Shown here: one piece after another, positions 892-13,644 of the stretch | Numbering within the stretch: the stretch's first letter is position 1 | Layout of the letters: the number at the start of each line of letters is the position of its first letter | Assembly: GCA_016792665.1 (NCBI GenBank) | Contig: JAEUKJ010000726.1 | Span: 1 to 33,082 of the forward strand | Source of the DNA: Deltaproteobacteria bacterium | GTDB lineage: Bacteria > Myxococcota_A > UBA9042 > PHBI01 | Direction: 5' to 3' | Length of the DNA: 33,082 nt | Made by a program: the position numbers and the translations under genes | Notes under the pieces: generated by a model | What the model was told of the DNA's origin: nothing | What the model saw: the letters and a program-made list of their open reading frames with translations, nothing else | The model's database searches: none

Positions 892-1917
892 GTGGTGGCG
901 AATACGGCGCGAACGAAATCGCAGAGGGCCTCGCGCGGCGACGCGGGCGCGCGCGGCGCGAAGTCCGAGCTGACCGGGCTCGGCCCCTGGCGTCTCGTCG
1001 AGGCGATCGGCGCCGGTGAGCGCGCCACCGTCTATCGCGCGACGCACGTCGGCGGGCATGGCACCAACGAGGCCCGGGCGGTGAAGGTCCTGCACGGGCT
1101 CCTCGCGCACGACCCCGACGCGGCCAAGGCCTTCGAGGTCCGTCTCCAGGCCCACGCGCAGCTCTCGCGCCTGGACCACCCCAACATCGTCCACTGCCAT
1201 GGCGTCGAGATCACCGCGGGTCGACCGTACGCCGTGCTCGACCTGGTGGATGCGGTGAGCCTCGACAAGCTCATGCCCGAGCGCGGGCGCGCCAAGGTCT
1301 CGGTCGAGGCGGGCGCCAACCTCGTCATCGCCATCCTCGATGCGCTCGCGGCCGCAGCCAACGAGAAGATCGCGCACGGCCGCCTCGCCGCCAACGACGT
1401 CCTGGTCCACCCGGACGGCATGGTGCAGGTCACGGGCTTCGGGCAGGCCGGCGACCTGCGCATGGACTTCCTGGCGGTCCATCGCCTCATCCAGTCGCTG
1501 AACACCCCGTGGCCGCCCGAGGTCGACGCGTGGCTCGATGCCCTCTCGGCCGAGCGCTCTGCCTGGAAGGATCTCCGCGCGGCGCGCGCGGCCTTTCCGC
1601 TGGCGACCACGGAGGCCGGGCGCAAGGCCCTCGAGCGCAGCGTGCGCAACCGCCGCAAGAAGGAACAGAAGGCCCTCGAAGAAGCCCAGGCCGAGGCCGA
1701 GGCGGGCGAGGAGGCGGAGGTCGAGGACGCCGCGGACGAAGAGGAGGTCGAGGAGACCGAGCGGCGCCCGAAGAAGAAGGCGCGGGTCCAGAAGCCGGTC
1801 GCGGTGCGCCGGGCCGAGGCGCTCCAGGCACTGCGTCAGGCCCGCATCACGGCGCTGGCGGCGCTGGCCATCGTGCTGGTCGCGCTGGCGATGGAAGTGC
1901 TGGGCGTCGGGAAGTAG
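892..1917 (+). CDS. Tail-anchored protein kinase-like protein, predicted pseudokinase
   Basis: This 341-residue protein has a protein-kinase fold signature: a glycine-rich loop [12 protein letters not shown] (residues 39-50), a VAIK-type lysine in AVKVLH (K65), and [11 protein letters not shown]. The catalytic elements are altered. The HRDLKPxN loop reads [11 protein letters not shown] (162-172), so the catalytic Asp is Arg164 and the following Lys is Ala166. DFG reads GFG (182-184). The C-lobe is short. Residues 245-305 are rich in Glu, Lys and Arg and probably form a charged coil. A single hydrophobic segment (about 319-337) ends the protein, so it is likely anchored in the membrane by its tail with the kinase-like domain in the cytoplasm. 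The start is GTG 892 or GTG 895; no good ribosome site decides between them. Phosphotransfer is unlikely, and a scaffold or regulatory role is inferred. The partner is unknown. Confidence 0.85.
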
Positions 1918-1947: not shown

Positions 1948-1976
1948 TTGTGCCGATGCGCGAGCGACGCTAGGTT
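1948..1976 (+). promoter_or_regulatory. Candidate promoter giving a leaderless metallophosphoesterase mRNA
   Basis: TTGTGC (1948-1953), a 17-base spacer and TAGGTT (1971-1976) end 7 bases before ATG 1984. No Shine-Dalgarno site precedes that ATG. The same TAGGTT-N7-start layout with a 17-base spacer recurs before the ABC transporter gene at 28640. Transcription would begin at or next to the start codon. Confidence 0.45.
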
Positions 1977-1983
1977 GTCGCGC

Positions 1984-3891
1984 ATGTTTCGCCGCTGTTT
2001 CGTCGTGCCCGCGGGGCGCTCACGGGTGCTCGCCCTTGTCGTGATGCTCGCCGCCTGTGGCGAGGATGGGGTCAAGGACCCGGTCGACACCTTCGAGGTC
2101 ACGCCGGACACCGCGCCCGACATCACGCCGGACACGGCCCCCGAGGTCGAGGCGGACACCGAGCCCGACGTCGCGCTGGACACGGCCCCCGAGGTCGAGG
2201 TCGATACCACCCCGCCCCCGCCGGTCGACCCGTTCGAGGCGGTCGATCCGACCCCGCCGTTCCTACCCGAGGAAGAAGCGCCGCCGGCCGCGCTGAGCTG
2301 TCCGCGGCTCGTCAACGCCGGGGCCGAGGCGGGCGATCTCACTGGCTGGCAGGTCGCCGAGGGGACCTTCGAGGCGGCCGACAACTTCCCGATCCCCTAC
2401 GCCGGCGGCTGGCAGTTCCGGGCCGGGCGCTCTTCGCGATCGCGCCTCACGCAGACCCATCACCTGGGCAGCGTGGTCGCGGGGCCGCGCACCGCGGTGC
2501 TGCGCACGATGGTGCGGAGCGACGACAGCGTCGACGAGGCATGGATGGCGGTCGCGGCCCTCGACGACCGCGGCATCGAGCTGGCGACGCGGAGGAACGG
2601 CCCGTACACGAGCAGCGACTGGCGGGAAGGCGAGGTCGCGCTGGCGCTGCCCGCGGGCACGACCCAGCTGCGCATCACCTTGGAAGGGGTGCGGCTCAAG
2701 GGCACCGACAACGATGCCTACTTCGATGACGTCGAGGTCTGCCTCTACGACCGCACGCCGCAGGCCCTGACCTCCGAGATGCCCGGTCCGCCGTTCCTCA
2801 TGAACGTGACACCAAACGCTGTCACGGTCATCTTCGAGACCCGGCTCGCGACGACCGCGGTCGTCGAGTACGGCCTCGACCCGAGCGCCCTCGACAAGGT
2901 CGCGACCTCGCCGGTGGCCAAGCAGATCCACAAGGTGCGCCTGACCGGCCTCGAGCCGTTCACGCGCTACTACTATCGTGTGCGCTACGCCGACCTCGCG
3001 CTGCCGCCGTACGACTTCCTCACGGCGCGCGCCCCCGACGACGATGGGCGTATCGAGTTCATCATGTTCGCCGACAACCAGGACGGCCCGAACGTGTTTC
3101 GCGGGCTCGCCAAGCAGATGGCCGCGTGGGACCCGGACTTCATCCTGCACGGTGGCGACGTGGTGCAGAACGGGACGCCCTGGGACTATCGCGAGACGTT
3201 CTTCGGACCGTACTTCGGCCTCGGCAACCACGCCGCCATCGTCATGGGGCCGGGCAACCACGAGACCTACTCGAGCACCATCCTGACCAGCGACGTCGCG
3301 CGGGCCCTCTGGGACACCTACGTCGACCAGCCCGGCGACAAGCACTGCTTCGGGTGGCGCTGGGGCTCGCTGTTCGTGATGGTCATCGACACCGAGAGGC
3401 CGCACGGCATCGGGACGGCGCAGTACGGGTGTATCGAGCAGACCCTGGGCTCGGAGCTCGCGCAGTCGGCGACGTTCCGCGTGGCCTTGTTCCATCGCGC
3501 GCCCCTCATCGAGTACTGGAGCTCGATCGCGGGCGAGCCCTCCGACGTGACCTTCTTCACCTTCGGTATGGACGCCCCCGACGTGCGCACCTACCTCGCG
3601 CCGCTGTTCCAGCGCATGCGCGTGCAGCTCGTCATGAACGGCCACAACCACCTCTACCAGTTCATCCCGCGCTGGCCCGAGTTCACGGCCTGGGTCATCT
3701 CGGGCGGTGGCGGCGGCGGGCTCGAGACGGGCGATCCGAGCACGCGCGTCAACGACTGGTCGGCCTTCGTCGAGAAGCAGACCTTCGGCCGCTTCCACTA
3801 CCTACGCGGCATCATCGAGGACGGGCGCTTGTGGGTGCGGGCCATCGGCGACCGCGGCGACGTGATCCACGCTTTTGAGATCGACCCCTGA
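1984..3891 (+). CDS. Exported metallophosphoesterase lipoprotein (purple acid phosphatase-like)
   Basis: ATG 1984 is chosen because it begins a lipoprotein signal peptide ending LAAC (C25); the TTG at 1948 would only add 12 unrelated residues. The 635-residue product has an acidic D/T/P/E-rich linker (30-100), a beta-sandwich-like segment with NAGAEAGDLTGWQV (about 106-256) resembling carbohydrate-binding modules, and a fibronectin-III-like segment (270-347). A calcineurin-type metallophosphoesterase domain follows. Its metal motifs are visible: DNQ (364-366), GDVVQNG (391-397), GNHE (424-427), FHRAP (503-507) and GHNH (553-556). The first motif is D-x-Q rather than the usual D-x-H. The layout resembles purple acid phosphatases. 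The substrate is unknown; a phosphoester or nucleotide handled at the cell surface is likely. The next gene also encodes a lipoprotein, 68 bases downstream. Confidence 0.88.
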   Translation: MFRRCFVVPAGRSRVLALVVMLAACGEDGVKDPVDTFEVTPDTAPDITPDTAPEVEADTEPDVALDTAPEVEVDTTPPPPVDPFEAVDPTPPFLPEEEAPPAALSCPRLVNAGAEAGDLTGWQVAEGTFEAADNFPIPYAGGWQFRAGRSSRSRLTQTHHLGSVVAGPRTAVLRTMVRSDDSVDEAWMAVAALDDRGIELATRRNGPYTSSDWREGEVALALPAGTTQLRITLEGVRLKGTDNDAYFDDVEVCLYDRTPQALTSEMPGPPFLMNVTPNAVTVIFETRLATTAVVEYGLDPSALDKVATSPVAKQIHKVRLTGLEPFTRYYYRVRYADLALPPYDFLTARAPDDDGRIEFIMFADNQDGPNVFRGLAKQMAAWDPDFILHGGDVVQNGTPWDYRETFFGPYFGLGNHAAIVMGPGNHETYSSTILTSDVARALWDTYVDQPGDKHCFGWRWGSLFVMVIDTERPHGIGTAQYGCIEQTLGSELAQSATFRVALFHRAPLIEYWSSIAGEPSDVTFFTFGMDAPDVRTYLAPLFQRMRVQLVMNGHNHLYQFIPRWPEFTAWVISGGGGGGLETGDPSTRVNDWSAFVEKQTFGRFHYLRGIIEDGRLWVRAIGDRGDVIHAFEIDP

Positions 3892-5117: not shown

Positions 5118-5188
5118 GCGGTTCGCCGAGCGGCGCGTCGACCCCGTGAGCCCGGGCTCGCGGCCGACGACATCGTGAGGTAAAGATG

Positions 5189-5231
5189 CGCCTCGGGATA
5201 GGGACCAGGGTCCTTGTCCCGGGGCGTTTTT
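5189..5231 (+). terminator. Rho-independent terminator after the beta-propeller lipoprotein
   Basis: Bases 5189-5205 pair with 5210-5226 to give a 17-bp stem that includes three G-T wobbles, with loop CAGG, followed directly by five T (5227-5231). This is a textbook intrinsic terminator. It lies between the lipoprotein stop (5117) and ATG 5267, so the DUF350 gene should have its own promoter. It also argues against the upstream in-frame ATG at 5186 as a start. Confidence 0.85.
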
Positions 5232-5266
5232 GTTCTCGCCCACCCCAACCCCATGAGGATCCCGCG

Positions 5267-6145
5267 ATGACCACGATCCTGGCCTTTAGCCCGACCCTCT
5301 TCGAGCCCGACAACCTCATCCGGACGAGCCTCTTCTTCATCGGCTCCGTCGCGCTGGTGGCCGGTGCCAAGTATCTGCGCGAGCTGCTCGCGGCGCGGCG
5401 CGGCTTCAAGCTGAGCTCGCTCATCGCCGACCGCGACAACACGCCGGTCGCGGTCGAGATGGCGAGCTTCGTCCTCGCCATGGTCATCGGCCTCCTGGGG
5501 TCACTCGTGGTGCAGGGCACCGAGTGGTACGAGCAGGCCCTCGACCTCGTGGGCACTGGCCTCCTCGTGCTCCTCGTGCTGTTGGCCAATGATCAGGTGA
5601 CCTCGCGCCTCATCCTGCGCGGCATCGACTGCAACCGTGCCGTCGCCGACGACCACAACCTCGCGGTCGCCATCGTGCGCGGCGCCTCGAACATCGCCTC
5701 GGCCTTCGTCATCAAGGCCGCCCTGGGCCACCCCTCGGTCCTGTGGGAGCGCGTCATCTGGCTTGCGATCGGGCAGGCAGTCCTCGTCCTCATGTCGCTC
5801 GGCTACCAGCTCCTGACCCCGTACGACGACCTCGCCGAGGTGCGCAGAAAGAACATCGCTGCGGCGCTGCCGATGGCCGGGATCCTGCTGGCGGTAGGCC
5901 TCGTGGTGGGCTCGGCCCTGGCCGGTCAGGGCGAGGGCTGGGGCGCGGATCTGGCCTCGCTGGGGATCGACATCGGCATCTCGGCCGTGCTCGTCTTCGT
6001 CCTGCGCTGGGCCGGCGACAAGCTGCTCCTGCCGGGCTCGACCTTCCACGAGGAGATCGCGCGCGACCAGAACCCGGGCGCCGGCTTCATCGAGGCGTGC
6101 ACCTACGTGGCAGGCGCTCTGGCGGTCACCTACTTCCTCAACTGA
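5267..6145 (+). CDS. DUF350 family inner-membrane protein, two tandem units
   Basis: The 292-residue protein is very hydrophobic, with about eight predicted membrane segments arranged as two DUF350-like halves. The charged end motif EIARDQNPGAGFIEACTYVAG (about 263-283, quoted in part: IARDQNPGAGF) is typical of the DUF350/UPF0719 family, and a matching DRDNTPVAVEMASF lies in the first half (about 47-60). The family has no firmly assigned biochemical function. ATG 5267 is chosen because GAGG (5255-5258) lies 8 bases upstream and because the longer frame would start inside the terminator. It converges on the DUF1517 gene, which is itself a membrane-anchored protein of unknown role. Confidence 0.85.
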   Translation: MTTILAFSPTLFEPDNLIRTSLFFIGSVALVAGAKYLRELLAARRGFKLSSLIADRDNTPVAVEMASFVLAMVIGLLGSLVVQGTEWYEQALDLVGTGLLVLLVLLANDQVTSRLILRGIDCNRAVADDHNLAVAIVRGASNIASAFVIKAALGHPSVLWERVIWLAIGQAVLVLMSLGYQLLTPYDDLAEVRRKNIAAALPMAGILLAVGLVVGSALAGQGEGWGADLASLGIDIGISAVLVFVLRWAGDKLLLPGSTFHEEIARDQNPGAGFIEACTYVAGALAVTYFLN

Positions 6146-8594: not shown

Positions 8595-11500
8595 TCAGGC
8601 GTGGAGCTCGCTCGGGCCGAGCCGCTCGAGCTCGACCCGGGCCTGTCGCACGCGCTCCATGAGCAGCGCATCGACGCTGGCGCGGGCCGCCTCGTGGGCC
8701 TCCTGCAGCGACTTCTGTGCGCGCCGCGGCTCGCCGAGCCCGACGTGGGCCTCGGCCTCGGCCAGGAAGGACCGCGCCGCGATCGACGCGCTGCGCGAGT
8801 TGGCGCGGGCACGTTCGGCGTAGCGGAAGACGTCGGCCCACAGGCGCCGCGCGACCATGGCCCGCGCCATGCCGAGGGACACGCGCGCGATGAGGACCTC
8901 TTCGGCGTCCTCGGCACTCACGCGACGCAGCGCGGAGCGCAGGCGGGTGCTGCCCTCGTCGAGCTCGCCGCTCAAGAGCTCGGCCTCGCCCAGGCCGACC
9001 TCGGCCATGAGCTCTTCGCGGTGGAGGCCGGCCGTGGCGGCCAGTCGGGACGCGGCCCGGAAGGTGTCGGTGGCGCGCTTGAGATCGCGCACCTCGAGCT
9101 CGACCTCGCCCAGCGCGACGAGGCAACGCAGTGCGTCGCCGGTCAGCCCCAGGTCGCGGAGGGCGTCGCGAGCCTGGCGGAAGTTGGTGCGCGCGGCCTC
9201 GCGGTCGCCGGTCGCCAGGGCGAGCTCGGCCCGCGCCTCCTGCACCAGCGCCGAGAGCCCACGCGCCCCGCGTGCGTCGCTGCGCGCCATGGCGTCGGCC
9301 AGGTCGCGAGCCCGCTGGAGGCAGCCGCCGGTGCCGCTGAGATCGCCGCGCACGAGGGCCGCCTTGGCCTTCAGCACGAACCACTCACCGGTCGTCTTGG
9401 CGTGCTTCAGGTCTTTGGCAGCGCCACTCTCCTCGAGGCTCGACTGCACGAGATCGAGGGCCTGGGCCGCGCGCTCGCTGTCACCGAGCCCGAGCAGGGT
9501 CCGGGCAAAGCGCAGGAGCGCGGTCGGACGTCGCTCGCCGCCCGAGCGGGCCGAGGCGTCGAAGCTCTGGATGGCGCCCGAGAGATCGCCCGCTTTGGCG
9601 CGCAGGCTGGCGATTTCCAGTTCGCGTGAACCACGTTCACTTTGCGGTGAGAGCGGCAGCGCGGCCTCGACCTCGAGGGCCGCCAGCCGGAAGAGGCCGA
9701 GGCGCTCGTGGCGGCCCGCGCGTCGCGTCGCGTCCTCGACACTCGGCTCGCGGAAGGCCTGGGCGAGTGCGTCGGTGGCCGGCCCGAGGCGCGCCAGGCG
9801 ATCGCTCACCCACGCCGCCAGATCCTTGGGCAGTTCCTTCTCGAGGTGCATGCGCGCGGCTTGCGTGAGCGCGTCTTCTGCCAGCGGCCCTTCGCCGAGT
9901 GCCGCCTCGAGCCACGCCCGCTCGGCATCGCGCGGGTCCGCGCCGCGCAAGAGTCCGGTCAAGAGCCAGGCGAGGCAGCCTTCACCGAGCTGGTGGAGTT
10001 GCTGCGGGACCTCCTGCCCTTCGGTCATGCGCGCCAGCATGCGCAGCGCGAGCGGGTTCCCGGCCGCCGCCGCGAGCAGCGCGTGACGTTGACGCGGCGC
10101 GACCTTCAGCGACTCGGCGAGCTGGTTCATCGCGCGCAGACCCAGGGGGCGGAGCTCGATGCGCGCCTGGTCCGCGAGCATCGTCTCGGGCTTCACGACG
10201 CGCGCCGTGGCCACGAAGCACCAGGGCCGCGACTGCGACTGGGCGAGCTTCACGACGAGCTGGAGGACATCCTTGCTGGCGCGATCGAGGAAGTGCACGT
10301 CGTCCATGACGATGACCAGCGGGCCCTCGCCAGCGCGCCGCGAGAGGGCATCGAAGACCAGGCGGGCCAGGGCGCGCAGGGTCGGCGGCTCGATCGCCGG
10401 GCGGTCGAGGAGGAGGAGCTCGAGCAGCTCGCGCTCGCGATCGCCGAGGTCGTGGTGGACGAGGCTGTCGAGATCGCTGACCTTGCCGCGCGGGGCCGGC
10501 AAGCGATAGGCGGCGGCGACCAGGCTCGCGAGCGCATGACCGGGAGACGCGTTGGCGGCCGGCGAGACGCGCACGGCCAGCGCGTTCCGGCCGTTGATGA
10601 AGGCCTGGACGAGCGCGCTCTTGCCCATGCCGCGAGCGCCCTGGACGAGCGCCATGGTGGGCCCGTGGCGCATCGACTCGTCGCCGATCTGTCCAAGGCG
10701 GCGGAGCTGGAGCCCGCGGCCCCAGAGGAGTCCGGCCTCGCCGAGGTCGGCGTCATCACCATCCTCACGCAGGGGCTCGGCCACCGGACGGCCGGCCACC
10801 GCACCGCCCCCGGTGAAGCGCGCGGCGGTCGGGGTACCTGGACCCTGAGCGCGGGCGGGCGTGGCGACGCGTCGCAGCACCGCGCACTCGAGGGACTGGC
10901 CGTCGGGCAGGAAGACCGTCGTCTGCGGGCGCACGGCGAGGCCGGCCCGACCCGCGAGCGTAGCCGGCACGGCGACCTGACCGTGGGTGGTCGCGACCGC
11001 GATGCGGCGCGCGAGGTCGATGGCCTGGGTGACCTGAGACGGCGCCTCGACCGCCGCGAGGCCGATGCGCAGCCCGAGGTTGGCCGCCAGGGCGCGCGTC
11101 TGCAGCGCCAGGAGATCGGCCGCGAAGGCCTGGACGAGCTCGACGCCCGCCTGGTTCCGCCCGGCCTTCGGCCCGCTCGGCAGCGACGCTTCACGGCGCT
11201 CGTCGCCCGCGACCTTGATCAGGGCGCGGCGATCTTCGCGCACGACCTCGAGCCCCTCGCCTTCCTTCTGCACGAGCCAGCGCGCGAGCTCGCCCGAGGT
11301 CAGGGCGCCGGGGTGCTCGGCGACGATCATCGCGACCGCGAGCGGTGCCTTGGCGGTCGCCGCGCGAGGGGCCGCGACATCGCTCATCGAGCGCCCGCCG
11401 GAGACGTAGGGTGCGACCTTCTTGGCGTCGACGCGCTGGAGCGCGCTCGCCCCCATCAGCGCGGTCGGCTCGGGCCCGCGGGTCTTGCGCTCGGCCGCTT

Positions 11501-12734
11501 CGCTCCGCGTGGTGGCCGTGCCCTGGGCGCTGTCGGCGGCCCGTGCGAAGGCCTCGGCTTGGCTCGTGCCGCGCGGCTGGACCTCGGTCTGTCCGCGCGC
11601 GATGCCACCGCGGGGGACCTCGACCCCGAAGCTCGGCTCCATCTGCACGGTCTTGTCGGGGACCTGCGCGAGCTCGGCGCGCGTGGTCTTCTGGCCGAGT
11701 CCGCGCGGTGCTCCGGGCACGGCCTCGGTCGACGGGACGCTGAACGGGAAGGACGACTCGGGGCAGCGCTGGACGATCGCCTCGAGGTCGGTCGCGCGCG
11801 CGGGCCGCTCCTCGGGCTGCTTCGCGAGCAGGCTCGCGACGAGCCGCTCGAGGGGCTCCGAGACCTGCTGGAAGGTCCCGACGCGCGGCGCGGGCTCGGA
11901 GAGCTGCTTCATGCAGAGGGCGACCGAGCTCGGGTCGTCGAAGGGGCGCTGACGGGTCAGCATCTCGAAGAGGATGATGCCGAGCGAGTAGAGGTCGCTG
12001 CGCGGGTCGGGCTCTTTGCCGAGGATCTGCTCGGGGCTCATGTAGGCCGGCGTGCCCGCGATCTCCACGGTCGAGTGGCGGTTGTCGAGCCCCTTCGGAT
12101 CGCCCGGCTCACGCACGATACGCGCGATGCCGAAGTCGAGGACCTTGGCCCACAGGCCGTCTTCGGTCGACGTGAGGATGATGTTGTCGGGCTTCAGGTC
12201 CCGATGGACCAGGCGCTGCCGGTGCGCCTCGGAAAGGGCGTCGGCGACCTGCGACACGATGGCCAGCGCCAGGGCCGGCGCCAGCGGCGCGCGGTAGTGG
12301 ATGAGGTCGCCGAGCGTCATCCCCTCGAGGAGCTCCATCACCATGTAGAGGTGCCCTTCGACCGACCGGCCGAAGTCATAGACGGTGACGACGTGCGGGT
12401 GGATGAGGCGGCTCGCGGCCTGCGCCTCGCGAAAGAAGCGCTTCACGGCGCGCGGCTCGTGGGCGTAGCGCGGGTGCAGCACCTTGATCGCCACCTCGCG
12501 CTCCATGCCGCGTTGGCGCGCGCGATAGACGGTGCCCATGCCGCCGGTGCCGACGACGCCCTCGATGTCGTAGCGCAGGTCGAGGGTCGTGCCCGAGAGG
12601 ATCGGGGCATCGGGGATCTCGAGGAGCCCCGTGCCGCAGCGGTCGCACACCAGCACTGCCGCGTCGTAGATCGCGTTACAAGCCGGGCAGATGTTGCGCG
12701 AGTCCGCGGTGCTCGGGTCGGGATTCCTGGCCAT
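8595..12734 (-). CDS. Multidomain Ser/Thr protein kinase with zinc ribbon, cyclase-like, AAA ATPase and TPR regions
   Basis: The start is ATG 12734, preceded by AGGAG at 7 bases; the frame remains open upstream but adds no domain. The 1379-residue protein has a CxxC-CxxC zinc ribbon (C16, C19, C30, C33) and an intact kinase domain (55-325): GTGGMGTVY loop, K84, E103, HRDLKPDN (177-184), DFG (200-202), GTPAYMSPEQ. A low-complexity linker (330-460) follows. Residues about 463-625 resemble a class III nucleotide-cyclase fold (LGLRIGLAAVEA, IDLARRIAVATTHGQVAVP) without the metal-binding Asp residues. An AAA/NTPase domain follows, with Walker A GARGMGKS (699-706) and Walker B LVIVMDD (806-812), and then many TPR-like helical repeats to the end. 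The layout resembles known kinase-cyclase-ATPase-TPR regulators. Substrates are unknown. It is divergent from the DUF2914-GH57-galT operon. Confidence 0.92.
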   Translation of the reverse strand: MARNPDPSTADSRNICPACNAIYDAAVLVCDRCGTGLLEIPDAPILSGTTLDLRYDIEGVVGTGGMGTVYRARQRGMEREVAIKVLHPRYAHEPRAVKRFFREAQAASRLIHPHVVTVYDFGRSVEGHLYMVMELLEGMTLGDLIHYRAPLAPALALAIVSQVADALSEAHRQRLVHRDLKPDNIILTSTEDGLWAKVLDFGIARIVREPGDPKGLDNRHSTVEIAGTPAYMSPEQILGKEPDPRSDLYSLGIILFEMLTRQRPFDDPSSVALCMKQLSEPAPRVGTFQQVSEPLERLVASLLAKQPEERPARATDLEAIVQRCPESSFPFSVPSTEAVPGAPRGLGQKTTRAELAQVPDKTVQMEPSFGVEVPRGGIARGQTEVQPRGTSQAEAFARAADSAQGTATTRSEAAERKTRGPEPTALMGASALQRVDAKKVAPYVSGGRSMSDVAAPRAATAKAPLAVAMIVAEHPGALTSGELARWLVQKEGEGLEVVREDRRALIKVAGDERREASLPSGPKAGRNQAGVELVQAFAADLLALQTRALAANLGLRIGLAAVEAPSQVTQAIDLARRIAVATTHGQVAVPATLAGRAGLAVRPQTTVFLPDGQSLECAVLRRVATPARAQGPGTPTAARFTGGGAVAGRPVAEPLREDGDDADLGEAGLLWGRGLQLRRLGQIGDESMRHGPTMALVQGARGMGKSALVQAFINGRNALAVRVSPAANASPGHALASLVAAAYRLPAPRGKVSDLDSLVHHDLGDRERELLELLLLDRPAIEPPTLRALARLVFDALSRRAGEGPLVIVMDDVHFLDRASKDVLQLVVKLAQSQSRPWCFVATARVVKPETMLADQARIELRPLGLRAMNQLAESLKVAPRQRHALLAAAAGNPLALRMLARMTEGQEVPQQLHQLGEGCLAWLLTGLLRGADPRDAERAWLEAALGEGPLAEDALTQAARMHLEKELPKDLAAWVSDRLARLGPATDALAQAFREPSVEDATRRAGRHERLGLFRLAALEVEAALPLSPQSERGSRELEIASLRAKAGDLSGAIQSFDASARSGGERRPTALLRFARTLLGLGDSERAAQALDLVQSSLEESGAAKDLKHAKTTGEWFVLKAKAALVRGDLSGTGGCLQRARDLADAMARSDARGARGLSALVQEARAELALATGDREAARTNFRQARDALRDLGLTGDALRCLVALGEVELEVRDLKRATDTFRAASRLAATAGLHREELMAEVGLGEAELLSGELDEGSTRLRSALRRVSAEDAEEVLIARVSLGMARAMVARRLWADVFRYAERARANSRSASIAARSFLAEAEAHVGLGEPRRAQKSLQEAHEAARASVDALLMERVRQARVELERLGPSELHA

Positions 12735-12765
12735 CGCGATGCTCCTCTCGAGGTGTCGACAGCCG

Positions 12766-12794
12766 AGCGTATGACGCCGCGCGAAGCCTGTCGA
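12766..12794 (-). promoter_or_regulatory. Candidate promoter of the kinase gene
   Basis: On the minus strand TCGACA (12794-12789, five of six to the -35 consensus), 17 bases, then TACGCT (12771-12766). The leader would be about 25-30 bases and carries AGGAG. Its -35 overlaps that of the divergent DUF2914 promoter. Confidence 0.45.
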
Positions 12795-12819
12795 AAAAAC
12801 CCGCGCCCTCGGATATGGT
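12791..12819 (+). promoter_or_regulatory. Candidate leaderless promoter of the DUF2914-GH57-galT operon
   Basis: TCGAAA (12791-12796), 17 bases, then TATGGT (12814-12819), which ends 6 bases before ATG 12826. There is no Shine-Dalgarno site before that ATG. The two divergent -35 elements overlap by 4 bases, so polymerase binding on one side could exclude the other. Confidence 0.45.
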
Positions 12820-12825
12820 CTTCCA

Positions 12826-13644
12826 ATGAATATCGCGGGGCTCGCCCTCCCCACAGCGCTCCTCACCCTGACCCGCGTCGCTCGCTCACCCAAGGGCGCC
12901 GCTACCGTCGTCGCGGTGACGTGGGGCCTCCTCGGCGCGAGCTGCGAGAACGGCGAGCAACGCGGCCCCGCGACCGTCGGCTCGTCGGGGGCCTCGGCCT
13001 CTGCGGGCTCAACGGAAGACCAGGCCGCGGCGCGGGCCGCCCTCGAGAAAGAGCTCCGCCCCATCGTCCGGGCCGAGCTGCGCGCCGAGCTCATGCCCCA
13101 GGTCCGGGCCGAGCTCAGGTCCGAGCTCGGCGGTGCCGGTGCCGGGTCGTCGGACAGCGGCTCGGCGGGTCGCTCGCCGCGCCCACCCCAGCCGGGCAGC
13201 GACGACCCGGACGCGCGTGGCGCGAACGAGCCCGAGGTCCTGGGCGGACCCTCGGCCCCGGGCCAGGACGCCGATATCTGGTCTTCGCCGGGCTCGAAGA
13301 TCTGGCCGAGCTCGGGCGGCTTCCGCCTGGTCGAGCTGGTCGTCGGCACGACCCTCGAGGACAAGCTGCCGGTCGACATCCGCACCCACTACCCGAACGT
13401 TCCTGAAATCCTCTATTGTTACACGGTCTTCGAGAACCCCGACAGCGACACCAACGTGACCCACATCTGGCGCCGCGGCAGCCGCCTCGTCTCGCGCGTC
13501 GAGCTCGAGGTCGGCAAGAGCCCGAAGTGGCGCACCTGGTCGAAGCAGCGGACCCAGCCCCACTGGACGGGTCTCTGGAGCTGTGAGGTCCTCGGGCCCG
13601 ACGGTCAGCAGCTCGGGCTCACCGTCTTCCAGATCGGAGGCTAG
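12826..13644 (+). CDS. DUF2914 domain protein, probable lipoprotein
   Basis: The 272-residue product has an N-terminal hydrophobic stretch ending LLGASC (C40), an off-consensus lipobox with Gly at -3. A charged helix of 11-residue repeats (RAELRAELMPQVRAELRSEL, about 82-101) and a Pro/Ser/Gly linker follow. The C-terminal region (about 166-271) fits DUF2914: LYCYTVFENP, THIWRRGSRL, KWRTWSKQRT, GLWSCEVLGPDGQQL and LTVFQI. In known proteins this beta-sandwich domain is often fused to envelope or regulatory modules; its ligand is unknown. It is the first gene of an operon: the GH57 start lies 4 bases after its stop. The long n-region before the Cys makes the exact export signal uncertain. Confidence 0.85.
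   Translation: MNIAGLALPTALLTLTRVARSPKGAATVVAVTWGLLGASCENGEQRGPATVGSSGASASAGSTEDQAAARAALEKELRPIVRAELRAELMPQVRAELRSELGGAGAGSSDSGSAGRSPRPPQPGSDDPDARGANEPEVLGGPSAPGQDADIWSSPGSKIWPSSGGFRLVELVVGTTLEDKLPVDIRTHYPNVPEILYCYTVFENPDSDTNVTHIWRRGSRLVSRVELEVGKSPKWRTWSKQRTQPHWTGLWSCEVLGPDGQQLGLTVFQIGG

Follow-up and report, generated by a model that had tools for sequence, protein, structure and literature searches.

The gene at positions 892..1917 (+) of the window, the 33,082-nucleotide stretch of DNA that we analyzed, encodes a 341-residue protein that looks like a tail-anchored pseudokinase. As aligned with active kinases, it has retained structural residues of the fold (the HRD His, the αF Asp and the F-G of GFG) and lost the catalytic ones. 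On the evidence of its sequences, it represents a new form of the bacterial membrane pseudokinase, one restricted to a single lineage. We consider it probable that this Hanks-type domain, which would be catalytically dead, serves on the inner membrane as a binding platform or allosteric partner and not as an enzyme.

Pfam recognized the kinase domain above the gathering score (PF07714, E 5e-15, residues 35–207; PF00069, E 1.3e-10). With the five orthologues as input, AlphaFold2 predicted, at a mean pLDDT of 77.8, the N-lobe of a kinase with a short C-lobe, followed by a long helix at residues 241–281 (1612..1734, +), a weakly predicted charged linker and a terminal helix at residues 303–336. 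Foldseek placed PknI of Mycobacterium tuberculosis as the top match of the model (E 1e-11), with PknB of that species also among the best, and VIA gave a Z score of 20.6 to PknB (1mru_B; rmsd 2.2 Å over 207 residues), which human GLK ties. The best sequence match among solved structures, from a phmmer alignment, was StkP. Pfam, Foldseek and VIA all point to the kinase fold expected of a bacterial Ser/Thr pseudokinase. The original prediction had called for a structure model and had named the lack of a kinase fold as grounds for giving it up; such a fold is predicted, so those grounds do not apply. PknB and StkP are both catalytically active and carry PASTA domains outside the cell, and PknI reportedly adopts a pseudokinase-like conformation.

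Translation is read from a GTG codon, and the true start may lie further in. Residues 1 to about 24 have no counterpart in the orthologues and a pLDDT below 50, and G+C at the second codon position is 0.74 in this N-terminal stretch versus 0.47 in the rest of the gene (a comparison that involves only 23 codons). For these reasons we regard the start as unsure.

The substitutions originally read from the sequence (HRD to HGR, LKPxN to LAAND and DFG to GFG) are exact, and phmmer sets HRDLKPQN of StkP against HGRLAAND and DFG against GFG. The catalytic-loop remnant HGRLAAND spans H162 to D169 (1375..1398, +). HGR is found in all five orthologues, and no other fully invariant run of their alignment is as long. 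The Asn position of the loop is Asn in two orthologues and Asp in three, and the Asp of HGR[LV]D is present in four and is Ala in the window protein. GFG at residues 182–184 (1435..1443, +) is GFG in 4/5 and SFG in 1/5. Pseudokinases are defined by the loss of at least one of the β3 Lys, the HRD Asp and the DFG Asp; here the HRD Asp is replaced by Arg, and the DFG Asp by Gly or Ser, in every orthologue.

The claim that the ATP-site lysine and the glycine loop remain holds in part. The lysine, K65 in AVKVL (1084..1086, +; placed by the StkP alignment), is present, and the β3 Lys is kept in four orthologues and is Ala in the fifth (genome G004). The glycine-loop region, G40 to V47 (GAGERATV; 1009..1032, +), reads GxGE and not GxGG, with Glu for the third Gly in all five; the second Gly is kept in all five. 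The αC Glu, the partner of the lysine, has also been lost in at least 4/5 orthologues, since the profile alignment places Arg there in the four other than the window protein. MAFFT and phmmer place R84 (1141..1143, +) at this position in the window protein and the profile places a Glu there, an ambiguity that stems from a 3-residue insertion.

The C-lobe is indeed short, as was proposed, chiefly because the activation segment is missing. Only seven residues (1444..1467, +) separate GFG from the αF Asp, D192, which is invariant in all orthologues; the spacing is 7–8 residues in 5/5, so about 30 residues of the segment are gone. Among 56 other kinases, the patterns used could score 46, and in these the same spacing is 34–44 (median 37). 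As a yardstick, and not a random sample, we took the kinases from the fetched loci that were gathered with an active-kinase profile and cover the Lys-to-DFG columns. All 86 keep the αC Glu, the HRD Asp, the loop Asn and the DFG Asp; the Lys is kept in 85 and the APE Glu in 82.

The charged coil and single C-terminal membrane helix of the original prediction are borne out. The helix spans residues 321–339 (1852..1908, +) with a hydropathy of 2.58, a value matched in the last 30 residues by just 5 of 20,000 permutations of the protein, and we rejected a chance origin on this basis. A hydropathy of 1.6 was reached in the last 30 residues by 362 of 20,000. The helix is present in 4/5 orthologues, that is, in all with a complete end, and all four carry a Glu at the same place within it (E335 in the window protein). 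Basic residues (RQAR) lie right before the helix in three of these four, and only 2–4 residues follow it, so the positive-inside rule would put the kinase-like N-terminal domain in the cytoplasm, at the inner membrane. That this plan is unusual was an overstatement: YabT of Bacillus subtilis is a known kinase whose only membrane helix is C-terminal (PMC6333020), and 14 kinases of the same class with intact motifs share the plan.

The order is a group of uncultured bacteria, and each of its five genomes, which span three families and are all drafts, has exactly one orthologue. These scored 381–472 bits in a search with the family alignment, and the next kinase in the order scored 84 bits or less. 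The window protein is 30–45% identical to the others, one of which (G002) is cut by a contig end. Among up to 43 best candidates per genome, the 47 genomes of the class outside the order (52 in all) held no comparable match, the best reaching 109 bits. In the phylum (377 genomes, up to five best candidates each), no genome stood out apart from these five. A scan of species genomes with one glycine-loop peptide pattern returned the four other orthologues and one weak match in a Pirellulales record. The orthologue search that had been suggested as a check thus found HGR in 5/5, [G/S]FG in 5/5 and the tail helix wherever the end is complete. Conserved HRD and DFG in orthologues would have marked the window gene as a decaying copy; none of the five keeps either motif, and a single orthologue with the same losses in every genome of the order argues against decay. 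The gene is thus a single copy kept across three families, in cells with many Hanks kinases: the window’s own genome has 51 kinase matches at E 1e-35 or better.

Kinases with the same tail plan and intact motifs occur in sister families. We found 14 short kinases in the class (loci L070–L074, L079, L085, L089, L100–L104 and L106, but not L105) that carry HRD[VI][ST]P[QRHE]N and one membrane helix ending 1–11 residues from the C-terminus. They are 355–402 residues long from the start of the domain and lie in genomes of five families outside the order (f5, f8, f10, f11 and f12). They differ from the pseudokinase in that all keep HRD, D[F/Y]G (13 DFG and one DYG) and [A/S]PE. Nine of the ten best out-of-order matches to the pseudokinase profile were likewise short HRD[VI]SP[QR]N kinases with a single C-terminal membrane helix.

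Trees were built from 61 kinases, from which L007, L008, L010, L025, L028 and L029 (profile score below 60) and L080 and L083 (judged partial) were dropped. The five pseudokinases group together with 100/100 support, and their branch is long. No link to the tail-anchored kinases showed in the first tree (53 rows), which came with a warning that long branches meet. When L024 and L005 were left out, the unrooted 51-row tree put the pseudokinases on the side of the HRD[VI][ST]PxN kinases, a placement (73/99) that is not firm. In a comparison of pseudokinase loci with tail-anchored-kinase loci (ORFs of at least 100 residues, E 1e-12), only the kinase genes matched, with no shared non-kinase neighbour.

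A profile of six tail-anchored kinases reached 535 bits (G009) and 380 bits (G018) outside the order and at most 319 bits within it, where 220 matches were counted in the five genomes; several of the weaker order matches (306 bits or less) extend to positions 343–374 of the 381 in the profile. We looked at 35 order kinases. In 13, the fetched stretch ended before the gene did; of the 22 with a complete end, none carried, 11 or fewer residues from its C-terminus, a helix with a hydropathy of at least 1.6. In two order kinases (L161 and L162), the chain continues for about 35 residues beyond a membrane helix near its end; this near-tail plan differs from that of the pseudokinase. Descent of the pseudokinase from a tail-anchored active kinase is plausible from these comparisons. 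Paired with it, the intact-motif relatives in sister families would offer a natural way to ask how a scaffold arises from a kinase.

At the head of the pseudokinase gene lies a gene that runs off the contig (1..600, −; Pfam Carboxyl_trans), which we read as an acyl-CoA carboxylase carboxyltransferase of the methylcrotonyl-CoA type. The two genes are head to head in the window, G002 and G004; in G003 the carboxyltransferase gene starts about 2.6 kb away, and it was not found on the 30-kb contig of G001. Behind it in G002 and G003 are genes for enoyl-CoA hydratase and biotin carboxylase; G002 also has an HMGL-like gene there, and G003 the start of one. We read these genes as a leucine-degradation set. 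Elsewhere in the window are genes for a metallophosphoesterase with a purple-acid-phosphatase N-terminal domain and an Asp/Thr/Pro-rich start (1948–3891, +), a protein with a DUF350 domain in two stretches (5186–6145, +) and a 1596-residue protein (8595–13385, −) that combines a complete protein kinase domain, in which HRD and DFG are intact, with an AAA_16 ATPase region. A defence role was considered and set aside: the PADLOC matches (PD-T4-6, best E 3.7e-23) resemble those that any kinase might give, and the NCBIfam matches are far below the cut-off.

On the tail side, the pseudokinase adjoins a gene that we call C (P0002; about 200–236 residues, four predicted membrane helices) in G001, G003 and G004, which represent three families. 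A second gene, B (P0003), whose product has a signal-peptide-like start and is predicted to be secreted, directly neighbours C in G001 and G003; in G004 it is one gene away. The three genes share a strand in G001, with 3 bases between C and the pseudokinase; in G003 and G004, C converges on the pseudokinase and the frames overlap at their ends. Among the 52 genomes of the class, C occurs in four and B in three, all within the order; C was not found in G002, nor B in G002 or the window’s genome (G000). Neither C nor B has a Pfam family above the cut-off, and the model of C was poor (mean pLDDT 62.5). Since three families keep the pseudokinase near C in two orientations, a functional link is suggested, from a small number of genomes. 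The restriction of the pseudokinase, B and C to the order may only reflect descent among five genomes.

In the window’s genome, C is on a contig without the pseudokinase (C666). The gene order at this locus (L067, 2004–4303, −), namely C, a gene for a secreted-looking protein and what we read as an acetyltransferase-like gene, matches that on G001:C90, except that the pseudokinase and gene B are missing. An order-restricted pair of unnamed proteins was seen at L040:10745–11868 (−), L042:1520–2628 (−) and L043:3032–5340 (+). One is a membrane protein (GRWxxR...GxRLxGxW), the other small and secreted-looking (HVxW, TAGSG), and neither is above the Pfam cut-off.

Taken together, the family would hold a Hanks-type kinase domain at the cytoplasmic face of the inner membrane by one C-terminal helix. 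The domain is predicted to be unable to transfer phosphate, because both catalytic acids, the αC Glu (in at least 4/5) and the activation segment are gone, so the conserved surface that remains would have to serve binding. What it would recruit is a partner, and the likeliest partners may be an active Hanks kinase of the same cell or the protein of gene C, paired with it inside the membrane; in the window’s genome, C is on a separate contig. More tentatively, the pseudokinase, C and B might be an unrecognized trans-envelope module confined to one order, an idea to which we give a rather low probability. A dead kinase derived from a tail-anchored active kinase would then gate C from the cytoplasm and B would read the periplasm, with gating through intramembrane contact between the conserved Glu in the tail helix and the one in the last helix of C.

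The original prediction left two roles open at the membrane, nucleotide sensing and scaffolding, and we favor the second. A sensor would use K65 and the glycine loop to bind a nucleotide (ATP or another) in the absence of Mg and would change conformation at the membrane. Pseudokinases can bind nucleotide without the DFG Asp, and K65 (4/5) and the second loop Gly (5/5) are kept. The inference that the retained lysine suggests sensing does not carry over to the family, however: the lysine is Ala in G004, its αC Glu partner is Arg in at least 4/5, the loop Asn survives in 2/5, the DFG Asp is lost and the third Gly is Glu in all five. Because the lysine is lost in one orthologue and its partner is not kept, we regard sensing as unlikely as a conserved function.

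Somewhat less likely still is a DNA tether of the YabT kind, in which DNA would be tied to the membrane through its binding to a basic juxtamembrane linker, with the dead kinase domain serving just for dimerization. The domain plan is the same, the basic juxtamembrane segment of YabT binds DNA (PMC6333020), and in the window protein and the G004 orthologue the 40 linker residues before the helix include 11 Lys+Arg. In G003, though, the linker is not basic (5 Lys+Arg versus 7 Asp+Glu), and that of the window protein also has 8 acidic residues. We give yet smaller odds to an atypical enzyme that uses the kinase fold for other chemistry, like AMPylation by SelO or glutamylation by SidJ. SelO and SidJ retain metal-binding acidic residues; here the metal sites have no conserved acidic residue, and the window protein has Ala where the other four have the Asp of HGR[LV]D. 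The invariant HGR, which a pure scaffold need not keep, would fit an enzyme, and the review of bacterial pseudokinases names SidJ and SelO among proteins so called that catalyze other reactions (PMC12599244). Finally, the gene could be a functionless, decaying duplicate of a tail-anchored kinase. Points in favor are that five other families of the class have such kinases in intact form and that the plan is absent from the 22 complete-end order kinases. We consider this highly improbable: the frame is uninterrupted (one copy is cut by a contig end) and single in all five genomes of three families, and every orthologue shows the deletion together with substitutions of a like kind. This conservation disfavors a pseudogene, and a membrane scaffold is the reading that we carry forward.

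Bacterial pseudokinases are largely unexplored by experiment (PMC12599244). In our literature search, which covered few subscription journals, we recognized no publication that treats this family. Among the features that the review describes for bacterial pseudokinase families are motif degradation, loss of the activation loop and a membrane region at the C-terminus (PMC12599244). There is a likeness to M. tuberculosis MviN and the ActPs3 group, mainly from actinobacteria, whose hallmark is an activation-loop deletion and many of whose members have a C-terminal membrane region; our family shows the deletion (7–8 versus 34–44 residues). All catalytic motifs are degraded in ActPs3, the members listed lose the β3 Lys (VALT), and the MviN pocket contains aromatic residues (PMC12599244), whereas here the lysine is kept in 4/5 and HGR...GFG is still recognizable, so the loss of motifs is not complete. 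MviN has a scaffold role, recruiting FhaA after phosphorylation of its tail (PMC12599244), and a scaffold for a polysaccharide co-polymerase is the role proposed for EcpK of Myxococcus xanthus, a pseudokinase of the bacterial tyrosine kinase type (PMC12004946). By analogy, both may be taken as precedents for a scaffold role of a pseudokinase, not as evidence for one here.

EssB/YukC of type VII secretion is also membrane-tethered, with a shortened activation loop and a structural role. It differs as part of a secretion system with a degraded glycine loop, in which the HRD and DFG remnants are unrecognizable (PMC12599244); in our family the remnants can still be recognized. The remaining groups are set apart by single features. 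ActPs1 substitutes all three catalytic residues, and here the β3 Lys is kept in 4/5. ActPs2 has Arg for the β3 Lys and Asn for the HRD Asp, in contrast to Lys in 4/5 (Ala in 1/5) and Arg in 5/5 in our family. GLW has GLW at the HRD position and Leu or Trp at the Lys, where we find HGR and mostly Lys, and CP1 and DLHK have no transmembrane region, unlike the orthologues with a complete end. As far as the descriptions in the review go, the HGR...GFG set with a mostly kept lysine therefore appears to fit none of ActPs1–3, GLW, CP1, DLHK, EssB/YukC and MviN (DYD aside) (PMC12599244). In overall plan the window protein matches YabT, with a kinase domain, a juxtamembrane linker, one C-terminal membrane helix and no sensor or other domain. 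The difference lies in activity: YabT is a DNA-stimulated active kinase (PMC6333020), and the active catalytic motifs of kinases with its plan are absent from the pseudokinase family.
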